A DNA stretch of 41,456 nt from Eubacteriaceae bacterium (GTDB lineage Bacteria; Bacillota; Clostridia; Eubacteriales; Anaerofustaceae). The number at the start of each line of letters is the position of its first letter. Within the stretch, counting starts at the first letter, position 1. Of the stretch, positions 22,991 through 28,224 are shown piece after piece. The stretch spans positions 1 to 41,456 of the forward strand of contig JAAYHF010000154.1 of NCBI GenBank assembly GCA_012727485.1. Direction: 5' to 3'. The notes beneath the pieces are model-generated. The model worked only from the letters and a program-made list of their open reading frames with translations. It did no database searches and was not told the DNA's origin. A program made the translations under genes and the position numbers.

Positions 22991-23803
22991 ATGATTATAA
23001 TCGGAGAAAAAATCAACGGCACTATTCCCTCGGTGAAAAAAGCCATCGGGGAAAGGGACGCGGATTTTATTATGTCAAGAGCCGTTAAGCAGGCCCAAGC
23101 GGGAGCAAGCTTCATAGATGTATGCGCCTCCACCTCCTCCGAGTTGGAATACGACGCCCTCGTCTGGCTCATAGGCGTGGTGCAGTCCGCGGTGGAAACC
23201 CCCCTTTGCGTGGATTCCCCCAACGAATTGCTTCTAAAGCGCATCTACGAGGAGGGATTGGTTAAAATACCCGGTATGCTCAATTCCGTCAACGAAGAAG
23301 GCACCAAATGCGAAACCATTTTTCCGCTGATCGCAGGCACCCCTTGGCAGGTCGTCGGGCTTACCTGCGACAAGGACGGCATACCCTCCCAATCGGATAA
23401 AAAGGTGGATATAGCCAAAAGCATGATAGATAAGGCGGTCAAGTACGGAGTTGATCTCAAGAATTTCCATATCGACCCCTGCGTAATGGCCCTCGCCACC
23501 GCCCCCGGGGCAATGCTGGATTTCGAATATTGCATTGCGCGCATCAAGGAATATGCCCCCGAGGTCAAAATAACCGGAGCCATCTCCAACATCAGCTTCG
23601 ATATGCCCCTAAGAAAGCTCATCAATCAAAACTGCATGGCCTTGGCCATTCGCGCGGGGCTGGACAGCGCCATTGCCGACCCCACCGACAGGGATATGAT
23701 GGGAGTTATTTATGCCGCCGAAGCCTTAAGCGGGATAGATAAAAGCGGCAGGAAATTCAACCGCGCCTTCAGGGCGGGCAAGATCGGCCCCAAAAAAGGT
23801 TAA
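22991..23803 (+). CDS. Methyltetrahydrofolate:corrinoid methyltransferase (AcsE/MeTr-like)
   Basis: MIIIGEKINGTIPSVKKAIGERD...; LCVDSPN, MLNSVNEE, HIDPCV, GAISNIS align with MeTr pterin-binding/active-site segments. Confidence 0.9.
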   Translation: MIIIGEKINGTIPSVKKAIGERDADFIMSRAVKQAQAGASFIDVCASTSSELEYDALVWLIGVVQSAVETPLCVDSPNELLLKRIYEEGLVKIPGMLNSVNEEGTKCETIFPLIAGTPWQVVGLTCDKDGIPSQSDKKVDIAKSMIDKAVKYGVDLKNFHIDPCVMALATAPGAMLDFEYCIARIKEYAPEVKITGAISNISFDMPLRKLINQNCMALAIRAGLDSAIADPTDRDMMGVIYAAEALSGIDKSGRKFNRAFRAGKIGPKKG

Positions 23804-23835
23804 GACCGTAAATACGGCTTAATTAATATTATTTT

Positions 23836-23942
23836 AGAGTAGGTAAGGTGCGTTAAGTTACACGGAATGGGAAGTAGTCCGTGGCCGAAGATTGTTCAAA
23901 TGCTATTTGTTTGATCACGATGCCTTGCCGCTTCCGCTACGA
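23836..23942 (+). promoter_or_regulatory. Tetrahydrofolate (THF, folT-type) riboswitch
   Basis: AGAGTAGG..GGTGCGTTAAGT....GGAATGGGA.GTAGTCC....CCGAAG....CACGATGCCTTGCCGCTTCCGCTAC matches the conserved THF riboswitch segments in order, directly upstream of a FolT-type gene. Confidence 0.85.
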
Positions 23943-23974: not shown

Positions 23975-24769
23975 ATGTCAAACCCCGGTTCTGCAAGTCC
24001 CAAAAAAAGCAATAAAACCCTTAAGCTCGTTCGGGCCGCTCTTTTCGCCGCCATCGCTTTGGCCTTAAAGCCCCTTTCGGTCTATCTTCTGCCCGTTGCG
24101 AGGCTGAGCATCTTCCCCGTTCCCGTTCTTATTTCGGGCATAGTCTTGGGCCCGGTGTGGGGTGCGGCGGTGGGAGTGGTCACCGATGTGGTCGGCTATC
24201 TTTTCTTCGATACCACAGGCGCGGCTCTCAACCCTCTGCTCACCATTGAATTCGCCGTCATCGGCGCCGTTCCCGGGTTGATTTTCATGCTCTTCAAAAA
24301 AGAAGGAAAAGCTTCCAACTGCAATGTTTACAATGTTTTCGCCTATCTCGGTCTTTTGGTCGTGTTGGTGGGGCTTTTCGTTGCAAAGGGCGCTCTCAAG
24401 TTTGAGGAAGGCGCACTCAATATCCTCTCCCCGGCCAGCGGAAATTGGAAGGCCCTCTCCTGGTGGGCCGTGGGCGGAATTGCCGCCGCTTTCCTGCTTT
24501 ATTCCGTGGTTATTGTGATGCTCGTCACCAAGCGGGGCATCGGTTCTTCGGACAAGAACACAACTTCCATGATTTTGTTCGCGACAACAATAGCAGTTCT
24601 TACCGGCTCCATTCTGATAGGAGGAACCGCCTTGGCTTTGATGTACGGCTGGTCGCTGGCGCTGACCTATTGCATCAAGATTTTCCAGAGCTTTCTCACC
24701 ATACCGCTTTATTCCCTGCTGATAATTCTGGTATATCCCGTGCTTGAAAAGCAGAAGAATAAGTTATAA
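23975..24769 (+). CDS. folT: Folate ECF transporter S component
   Basis: Hydrophobic ORF AALFAAIALALKPLSVYLLPVARLSIFPVPVLISGIVLGPVWGAAVGVVTDVVGYLF...; THF riboswitch upstream. Confidence 0.88.
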   Translation: MSNPGSASPKKSNKTLKLVRAALFAAIALALKPLSVYLLPVARLSIFPVPVLISGIVLGPVWGAAVGVVTDVVGYLFFDTTGAALNPLLTIEFAVIGAVPGLIFMLFKKEGKASNCNVYNVFAYLGLLVVLVGLFVAKGALKFEEGALNILSPASGNWKALSWWAVGGIAAAFLLYSVVIVMLVTKRGIGSSDKNTTSMILFATTIAVLTGSILIGGTALALMYGWSLALTYCIKIFQSFLTIPLYSLLIILVYPVLEKQKNKL

Positions 24770-24935: not shown

Positions 24936-25568
24936 ATGAAGTATGCGGAAAAGTCATGCGTAGAGTTCACAGATGCGACATTTTCCAACGCGCCCGTACC
25001 GGGCGGCGGAGGCGTGTCCGCTTTGGCGGGAGCGCTGGGAACAGCTCTTGGAGGAATGGTTTGCAATTTGACCACCGGCAAGAAGAAATATGCCCAGTAT
25101 GAGGAAGATATTCAGAGAATAATGAAGGAAGCCAACGAAATCAAGGATTCCCTCATCACAATGATCGATCAGGACGCCGAAAACTTCCTGCCCCTTTCCA
25201 AGGCCTACGGACTGCCCACCTCCACCGACGAGGAGAAGGCACACAAGGCAAAGGTTATGGAAGAATGCCTTAAGGGCGCTTGCAGCGTTCCCGTTGACAT
25301 CGTAAAGACTTCCTATAAAGTCATCGCTTTGATGGAAGAACTCGCAGTTAAGGGTTCGTCCTTGGCTTTGTCCGATGTGGGCGTGGGAGTTGCATTGCTC
25401 AGGAGCGCCATCACCGGCGGCTGGCTGAATGTCGTCATAAACATCAACAGCATCAAGGACGCCGAGTATGTGGCAAATGTACGCAAGGAAGTCGAACCCC
25501 TTGTCACCGAGGGCATGGCTAAATGCGACGAGATCTATATGAAGGTTTGGAAGACCCTGCAGAAATAA
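24936..25568 (+). CDS. fchA: Methenyltetrahydrofolate cyclohydrolase / formiminotetrahydrofolate cyclodeaminase family
   Basis: MKYAEKSCVEFTDATFSNAPVPGGGGVSALAGALGTALGGMVCNLTTGKKKY...; RBS cggagg. Confidence 0.92.
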   Translation: MKYAEKSCVEFTDATFSNAPVPGGGGVSALAGALGTALGGMVCNLTTGKKKYAQYEEDIQRIMKEANEIKDSLITMIDQDAENFLPLSKAYGLPTSTDEEKAHKAKVMEECLKGACSVPVDIVKTSYKVIALMEELAVKGSSLALSDVGVGVALLRSAITGGWLNVVININSIKDAEYVANVRKEVEPLVTEGMAKCDEIYMKVWKTLQK

Positions 25569-25720: not shown

Positions 25721-26626
25721 ATGACCGCAAAATTACTAAGCGGAGCTGAAGTTGCTCAGGCTATTTTAGCCCAGGCCAAGACCGATGCCGACGAACTGAA
25801 GGCAAAGGGAATCAATCCCAAGCTGGTTGTGTTCAGAGTCGGTGAAGACCCCGGTTCAATATCCTATGAAAAGGGTATCATCAAGACCGTCAACGATGTC
25901 AACATTGACTTCGCCAACTATATCTTCCCCGAGAATGTTACCCAGGAAGAATTCATCGCCAAGCTCAAGGAAGCCAACGACGACAAGAATGTCAGCGGTA
26001 TCCTCGTTTTCAAGCCCCTTCCCGCACAGCTTGATGAAGAAGAAATCAAATACACCCTGAACACCTTAAAGGATCCCGACGCCATGAACCCCGCCAACCT
26101 CGGCAAGCTCATGATCGAAGATGAAAGAGGATTCTCCCCCTGCACCCCCGAGGGCGTTATGGAAATGTTCGCCCATTACGGAATAGATCTGGTGGGCAAG
26201 GATGTCGTCGTCATAAACAGGAGCGTTGTTTTCGGAAAGCCCATGGCAATGATGCTCGCCGCCGCTTCCGCAACAGTCACCATCTGCCACTCCAAGACCA
26301 AGAATTTGGCCGAAAAGTGCAAGGCCGCCGATATCGTCATAACCGCAGTCGGCCGCTACGGAATGGTAACTCCCGATATGCTCAATGAAAACGCCGTATT
26401 AATAGACGTTGCCATGTCCCAGAAGAAGGACAAGGAAGGCAATTTCGTTCTCAACGAAAAGGGCAAGAAGATCAGAACCGGCGACAGCCTTGAAGAATGC
26501 GCCGAAAAGGCCGCAATGATAACCTCAGCCACTCCCGGCTGCGGCGGCGGCACAGGCCCCATCACCTCCGCTCTTCTGACCAAGCACCTCATCAAGGGCT
26601 GCAAAATGCTCAACGGACTATTATAA
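25721..26626 (+). CDS. folD: FolD-family methylenetetrahydrofolate dehydrogenase with atypical active site
   Basis: FRVGEDPGSISYEKGIIK, KDPDAMNPANLGKL, INRSVVFGKPMAMML, TPGCGGGTGPIT. Confidence 0.92.
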   Translation: MTAKLLSGAEVAQAILAQAKTDADELKAKGINPKLVVFRVGEDPGSISYEKGIIKTVNDVNIDFANYIFPENVTQEEFIAKLKEANDDKNVSGILVFKPLPAQLDEEEIKYTLNTLKDPDAMNPANLGKLMIEDERGFSPCTPEGVMEMFAHYGIDLVGKDVVVINRSVVFGKPMAMMLAAASATVTICHSKTKNLAEKCKAADIVITAVGRYGMVTPDMLNENAVLIDVAMSQKKDKEGNFVLNEKGKKIRTGDSLEECAEKAAMITSATPGCGGGTGPITSALLTKHLIKGCKMLNGLL

Positions 26627-26648: not shown

Positions 26649-27305
26649 ATGATTATCACAAAGGCCAAACCCACTCAAGACGTTCTCGATATGCTCGGGA
26701 ATGTTAAAAAAGTGCTTTTAACCGGTTGCGGCGAATGTTCCACCACCTGCAGAACCGGCGGCGTTGAAGAACTCGACGCAATGGAAAAGTTCCTCACCGA
26801 AAACGGTTACGAAGTTGTCGGAAAGTGCGTTCCCCAGCTTTCCTGCAATAAGAACCTCATGAAAAGAGAGCTGAAGGCTTTCAAGGACTCCGGTTATGAA
26901 GCCGTTGTCGTTATGAGCTGCGGAGACGGCACCCAGACCGTTGCCGGATTGGTTGACAGCCCCGTATATCCCGCCAACGACACCATGTTCCTCGGCGAGA
27001 TCGAAAGACTTACCCTGTTCAGCGAAGCCTGCAGAATGTGCGGCGATTGCGTCCTCGGAAAAACCGGCGGCGTATGCCCCATAACCAAGTGCGCCAAGAG
27101 TTTGGTGAACGGCCCCTGCGGCGGCGCCAAGAACGGCAAATGCGAAACCAACCCCGATGTTGAATGCGGTTGGATTTTGATCTACGACAAGCTCAAGAAG
27201 CTTGGCCAGTTGGACAAGCTCTATGTGGCCAATGATGATAAGGGTTACAAGAAGAACCTTTACCCCATGACCATCAATCTCAAGGAGGATGCGGCAAATG
27301 AGTAA
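26649..27305 (+). CDS. metV: MetV, zinc/Fe-S methylenetetrahydrofolate reductase partner (MTHFR C-terminal domain family)
   Basis: TGCGECSTTCRTGG, CRMCGDCVLGKTGGVCPITKCAKSLVNGPCGG. Confidence 0.92.
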   Translation: MIITKAKPTQDVLDMLGNVKKVLLTGCGECSTTCRTGGVEELDAMEKFLTENGYEVVGKCVPQLSCNKNLMKRELKAFKDSGYEAVVVMSCGDGTQTVAGLVDSPVYPANDTMFLGEIERLTLFSEACRMCGDCVLGKTGGVCPITKCAKSLVNGPCGGAKNGKCETNPDVECGWILIYDKLKKLGQLDKLYVANDDKGYKKNLYPMTINLKEDAANE

Positions 27306-28224
27306 TTTACAAAAAGCACTCGAAAGCGGAAAATTCGCTATCACAGCCGAAATGGCGCCCCCCAAGGGTGTCGATTTCAGCCACCAGATCGCCGTTGTCG
27401 AACAGCTCAGAGGAAAGGTCGATGCCTGCAATGTCACCGACTATCAGTCTTCCAGCCTCAAGGCTTCCTCGATCGGACTTTGCATAAAGCTCATTCAGCT
27501 CGGTATTGAGCCTGTTCTCCAGATGACCGGACGCGACAGAAGCAGAATGGCTATCCAGGGCGACTTCATGGCCGCCGCCGCCTTCGGCATCGAGAACATA
27601 TTAGCCCTCACCGGCGACCACCCCACAGTGGGCGACTGCCCCGAATCCAAGCCCGTATACGATTTGGATTCCGTGGGTATCCTGCGCGCGGCGGTACAGC
27701 TGACCACCGGTTTTGACTGCGGTGGCAACAAGCTGGACGGCGCGGCCCCCTATTATTATCTCGGAGCCTGCACCACCCCCGTTTATGATCCGGTGGAGCT
27801 TCAGCTCATGAAGATGAAGAAAAAGATCGATGCCGGCGCCAAGTTCTTCCAGACCCAGGGCGTTTACGAAGCCGAACCCATGAAGCCCTTCATGGAAATG
27901 GCCGAGAAATACGGCGTTTACCTCATGGCGGGAATTATCCCCTGCAAGACCGCCGCAATGGCGAAATACATGAGCAACAACGTTCCCGGTATCCGCGTTC
28001 CCGAATATCAGATCGAAAGACTTAAGGCCGCCGCAGCCAAGGTTCCCGCGGACGACCCCAATGTCAAGAAGCTCAAGGCCGCCGTTCAGGAAGCCGAAGG
28101 TATCACCATGTCCGCCGAGTTCCTCGCAGAACTCAAGGAAAAGGGTCTTTGCCACGGCGCTCACATCATGGCCATCGGCGCAGAGGAGAATGTTCCCAAG
28201 ATTCTTGCGGAAGCAGGATTCTAA
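27298..28224 (+). CDS. metF: Methylenetetrahydrofolate reductase
   Basis: GKFAITAEMAPPKGVDFS, CNVTDYQSSSLKASSI, ENILALTGDHP, AGAKFFQTQGVY; ATG 27298 overlaps the metV 3' end. Confidence 0.93.
   Translation: MSNLQKALESGKFAITAEMAPPKGVDFSHQIAVVEQLRGKVDACNVTDYQSSSLKASSIGLCIKLIQLGIEPVLQMTGRDRSRMAIQGDFMAAAAFGIENILALTGDHPTVGDCPESKPVYDLDSVGILRAAVQLTTGFDCGGNKLDGAAPYYYLGACTTPVYDPVELQLMKMKKKIDAGAKFFQTQGVYEAEPMKPFMEMAEKYGVYLMAGIIPCKTAAMAKYMSNNVPGIRVPEYQIERLKAAAAKVPADDPNVKKLKAAVQEAEGITMSAEFLAELKEKGLCHGAHIMAIGAEENVPKILAEAGF

Follow-up and report, generated by a model that had tools for sequence, protein, structure and literature searches.

A FolD predicted to be dehydrogenase-only beside FchA in a methyl-branch gene cluster

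The fchA–folD locus

The window (the whole stretch of DNA analysed, 41,456 nucleotides of contig JAAYHF010000154.1 from a Eubacteriaceae bacterium, a gut acetogen relative) carries folD within a group of folate and one-carbon genes, all on the forward strand:

22994–23803 (+): AcsE-like methyl-THF:corrinoid/Fe-S protein methyltransferase (NCBIfam NF005719, above cut-off)
23833–23941 (+): THF riboswitch, directly ahead of the gene for the folate transporter (Rfam RF01831, 53.1 bits)
23975–24769 (+): folate-family ECF transporter S component (NCBIfam TIGR04518, above cut-off)
24936–25568 (+): fchA, methenyl-THF cyclohydrolase, 210 aa (FTCD_C domain, structure match and context)
25721–26626 (+): folD, predicted monofunctional 5,10-methylene-THF dehydrogenase, 301 aa (Pfam PF00763 and PF02882, AlphaFold)
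26649–27305 (+): metV-like protein of the MTHFR C-terminal domain family (Pfam PF12225)
27289–28224 (+): metF, methylene-THF reductase (Pfam PF02219)

Dihydrolipoyl dehydrogenase and GcvH are also encoded in the cluster; outside it, the same genome has Fhs and a match to the acetyl-CoA synthase family. The riboswitch may control fchA–folD as well as the transporter gene. The gap between fchA and folD is 152 bases long, and four to five imperfect copies of TTTCTGCCGAAATAA at 25557–25697 fold into strong hairpins (z −6.4); the corresponding gap in a genus-mate is just 47 bases, so the repeats are not conserved there.

FchA gives a Pfam FTCD_C match of 224 bits and is the sole FTCD_C protein in the genome, which is 92% complete. 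Its sole NCBIfam match is NF045657 (MthfCyhylaseFchA), which at 183.6 bits scores under the 275-bit cut-off, and the name therefore rests on the domain, the closest solved structure (methenyl-THF cyclohydrolase 7vg4, E 8.7e-40) and the gene context.

Translation of 25721–26623 (+) yields the 301-residue FolD, which contains GEDPGSISYEKGIIK and ILVFKPLP. Both Pfam domains score above their cut-offs (PF00763 with 100.2 bits and PF02882 with 157.5 bits), the AlphaFold model has a mean pLDDT of 91, and its best 50 matches in the PDB are all FolD/MTHFD, placing the protein in the FolD fold. Among the 25 NCBIfam models listed, none is above its cut-off (the best scores 245 against 411 bits), and this includes any curated model for bifunctional FolD. 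A genome-wide search of the 92%-complete assembly recovered this one copy, with no second, canonical FolD elsewhere.

Active-site residues and the fate of the two activities

Residues were mapped by MAFFT alignment with E. coli FolD (from NC_000913), which gives the following correspondences; counts refer to 60 FolDs that lack the lysine and have Phe at position 98, and to 100 Lys-bearing FolDs:

25835–25837 (+): Arg39, at E. coli Leu40; Arg in 60/60 Lys-less Phe98 FolDs against 1/100 (1%) of the Lys-bearing
25865–25867 (+): Tyr49, E. coli Tyr50, kept (alignment)
25868–25870 (+): Glu50, at E. coli Val51; Glu in 58/60 Lys-less Phe98 FolDs against 0/100 (0%) of the Lys-bearing
25877–25879 (+): Ile53, in place of the catalytic Lys54 of E. 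coli (alignment)
26009–26011 (+): Phe97, in place of E. coli Gln98 (alignment)
26078–26080 (+): Asp120, E. coli Asp121, folate binding, kept (alignment)

Tyr49 and Ile53 lie on the helix formed by residues 44–59 of the model. Both hallmarks of a bifunctional FolD, the catalytic Lys at Tyr+4 and the Gln of QLPLP, are absent, and the Leu that follows the Gln is changed as well (Lys98 where E. coli has Leu99). The substrate-binding Tyr and Asp, expected of a monofunctional dehydrogenase, are kept. The original prediction, that the Tyr is retained with Ile at +4 and that the Gln is replaced, thus agrees with the alignment, and the codons of Tyr49, Ile53 and Phe97 all fall within the span quoted for these changes. 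As the genus-mate and the whole clade carry the same residues, the changes are not a sequencing accident; between FolD and the genus-mate orthologue dN is 0.076 and dS 1.09, indicating purifying selection.

The functional reading draws on characterized enzymes. In E. coli FolD, K54N leaves cyclohydrolase undetectable and dehydrogenase at about 19%, and Q98H leaves about 1% and about 8%, respectively (PMC5688156); the equivalent residues of the human enzyme are Lys56, Gln100 and Asp125 (PMC3368264, PMC6443876), and the catalytic lysine requires hydrophobic surroundings to stay unprotonated (PMC3368264). Since both residues are absent here and the E. coli single mutants behave in this way, we infer that the window FolD lacks cyclohydrolase and retains dehydrogenase activity, as had been proposed; from sequence this is a strong and well-supported prediction. 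In the E. coli single mutants, however, the greater part of the dehydrogenase activity is gone as well, suggesting that good dehydrogenase activity here would depend on the other changes of the clade.

The original prediction had also named, as a finding that would speak against it, another lysine two or six residues after the Tyr standing in for the missing one, and neither is conserved as a replacement. Of 86 Lys-less FolDs just 38 have Lys at Y+2 (Lys51), and many Lys-bearing ones also have Lys or Arg there. The lysine at Y+6 (Lys55) corresponds to E. coli Lys56 and is frequent in both classes; the genus-mate has Ser at this position, and most Acetobacterium have Thr.

The two losses form part of a wider change at four sites, which in E. 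coli numbering are Leu40Arg, Val51Glu, Lys54 to Ile, Ala or Leu (the only residues at position 54 in the 60 Lys-less Phe98 FolDs) and Gln98Phe. The 60 Phe98 FolDs fall inside one clade of 66 Lys-less FolDs (FastTree, support 95). In E. coli Q98H, Tyr50 packs against V38, L40, L96 and H98 (PMC5688156), and position 40 can therefore be placed in the pocket that takes up Tyr50. The four-site change looks like rebuilding under selection, not decay, which is consistent with the low dN relative to dS. While the residue reading of the original prediction holds, it overlooked the nearly clade-specific Arg40, which belongs to this concerted rewrite and is possibly functional.

Lysine loss and FchA across the Bacillota

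Both Lys and Gln are absent from 47 of the 50 FolDs fetched from the order, with Phe at the Gln site in 46 and Leu in one. The remaining three keep both residues and all come from one family, and the genomes that encode them are without FTCD_C. The motif is common to Acetobacterium fimetarium, A. bakii, A. wieringae, A. paludosum, A. tundrae and A. dehalogenans, and is also present in Eubacterium callanderi, E. aggregans and E. barkeri. The rarity implied by the original prediction is therefore not borne out; in Acetobacterium, Eubacterium and their relatives, a FolD without the Lys is what one normally finds.

A wider sample, comprising the order and a spread of the phylum, contained 177 classifiable Bacillota genomes, in which FchA was scored as an FTCD_C match of more than 100 bits and as adjacent when within 3 kb of folD. 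FchA was present in 77/77 genomes with only Lys-less FolDs, adjacent to folD in 66 of them. In genomes with a Lys+Gln FolD it was missing from 56/75 and present in 19/75, and was adjacent in 0/75; one genome of the 177 had a mixed FolD state. The proposal that the upstream FchA supplies the missing step gains support from these counts and from the lack of any other FTCD_C protein in this genome. The association between Lys-less FolD and FchA gives a Fisher p of <1e-24, a value that, the genomes being related, is no guide to its strength. The FolD tree contains at least seven changes of Lys state, with three independent pairs on supported branches, too few for significance. In two relatives without fchA near folD (one of these loci is ended by the contig end), fchA lies elsewhere in the genome.

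Adjacency to fchA was considered as a diagnostic of lysine loss and rejected. Genomes whose FolD keeps the Lys and has Glu for the Gln carry FchA in 24/24 cases, adjacent in 17/24, and a neighbouring fchA alone is thus no proof that the Lys is gone.

Several other FolD arrangements were seen in the sample. Lys54-keeping, Glu98 FolDs have fchA about 1 kb downstream (loci L204, L209, L198, L181 and others). Other Bacillota carry tandem FolD pairs (loci L162, L167, L155, L159, L173 and L174), in which one copy has Lys/Gln/Asp and its neighbour has Gln for the Lys and Glu for Asp121; these are possibly split or heteromeric FolDs. One genome encodes three copies (L122, L138 and L141), a tandem pair and a Lys-less copy adjoining fchA; in this pair one member has Val for Tyr50 with the Lys kept, and the other has His for Tyr50 with Ile for Lys54.

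Taken together, it is very probable that the window encodes a dehydrogenase-only FolD with FchA as the cyclohydrolase, within a methyl-branch (Wood–Ljungdahl) cluster. FolD would interconvert methylene-THF and methenyl-THF with NAD(P), and FchA would carry out the cyclohydrolase step between methenyl-THF and 10-formyl-THF. In the likeliest history FchA would already have been there, the cyclohydrolase site of FolD would thereby have become free to change, and the clade would then have rebuilt it as Arg40/Glu51/Ile-or-Ala54/Phe98.

The same residues could be read as a site rebuilt and not lost, in which Arg39 with Glu50 partly replaces Lys54 and Gln98 and some cyclohydrolase is kept. The distribution of Arg40 and Glu51 between the Phe98 and the Lys-bearing FolDs is in its favour, as is the location of position 40 within the Tyr50 pocket of E. 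coli Q98H (PMC5688156). However, FchA is always present in the clade genomes tested, other Lys-less FolDs with FchA are without Arg40, and an arginine is unlikely to mimic a lysine held unprotonated in a hydrophobic setting (PMC3368264), which leaves this explanation improbable. A lower probability still attaches to the neighbour being a formimino-THF cyclodeaminase of histidine or purine fermentation, with FolD still serving as the cell's cyclohydrolase by an unrecognised mechanism: the FTCD_C family does include cyclodeaminases (e.g. 1tt9 and 1o5h) and FchA does score too low for the cut-off of its NCBIfam model, but the formiminotransferase domain PF02971 was not found in the genome, a methenyl-THF cyclohydrolase is the solved structure that matches best, and MthfCyhylaseFchA is the only NCBIfam match. 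We give almost no credence to a decaying folD with both activities gone. Although two catalytic residues are lost, the gene is the sole folD of the genome, its dN and dS are those of a constrained gene, the predicted fold is confident and intact, and the equivalents of Tyr50 and Asp121 are kept.

Beyond the dehydrogenase-only assignment, we tentatively suggest, as a doubtful extension, that Arg40/Glu51/Ile-or-Ala54/Phe98 forms a rebuilt site of a FolD subfamily that is widespread, in which the Arg and Glu work chemically or positionally, so that the enzyme is either specialised as an efficient dehydrogenase or retains part of the cyclohydrolase activity, with methenyl-THF passed between FolD and FchA.

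In place of the habit of annotating every FolD as "bifunctional", these results offer a residue rule that can be tested, namely that in the Bacillota sampled, genomes in which all FolDs are without Lys54 always have FchA. This bears on metabolic models of acetogens and on which FolD/FchA pairs are chosen for formate-assimilation pathways, and with the four-site signature simple mutations can test how the lysine and the glutamine contribute to each half-reaction. The rule and the signature may be new; neither was found in the open-access papers searched and read, a scope that covers little of the subscription literature and is no evidence that they are unpublished.

Comparison with known systems

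The division of labour between FolD and FchA is old, real and common to the whole Acetobacterium/Eubacterium group, and it is therefore largely expected and not a new system. Systems of this kind, in which the methylene-THF dehydrogenase is monofunctional and the cyclohydrolase is an enzyme of its own, are already known from acetogens. The bifunctional E. coli FolD shares the fold (TM ~0.82), Tyr50 and Asp121 but differs in having Lys54 and Gln98, and no FTCD_C protein was found in the E. coli control genome. Yeast MTD1 (PDB 1EDZ/1EE9), a monofunctional NAD-dependent methylene-THF dehydrogenase, independently has Thr for the Lys and Tyr for the Gln. It is distant (E 1.9e-9) and differs in having Leu at position 40, with no Arg, and Glu for Asp121. 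The MTD1 sequence compared matched PDB 1EDZ over its whole length. For Clostridium perfringens, the title of a 2016 paper by Aluri et al. reportedly names a FolD dehydrogenase and an FchA cyclohydrolase as separate enzymes, beside Fhs, which resembles the division predicted here.

Among acetogens, the methylene-THF dehydrogenase of Peptostreptococcus productus is described as monofunctional, as is predicted for the window FolD, and as NADP-dependent (PMC6443876). In Acetobacterium woodii, FolD (Awo_c09280) and FchA (Awo_c09270) are encoded in the same fchA–folD–metV–metF order, but rnfC2 stands between folD and metV, and fhs1 lies upstream of fchA (PMC10472528). The Arg-Tyr-Glu-Ile-Phe signature of the window FolD recurs in the FolDs of Acetobacterium, and the methylene-THF dehydrogenase of A. 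woodii has been described as specific for NAD (PMC7793690). At the coenzyme site, Acetobacterium and Eubacterium have Asn and Val at two positions (INNS and CHVF/CHVH), whereas the window FolD has Arg and Ser (INRS and CHSK), and its NAD/NADP preference may therefore differ from theirs.
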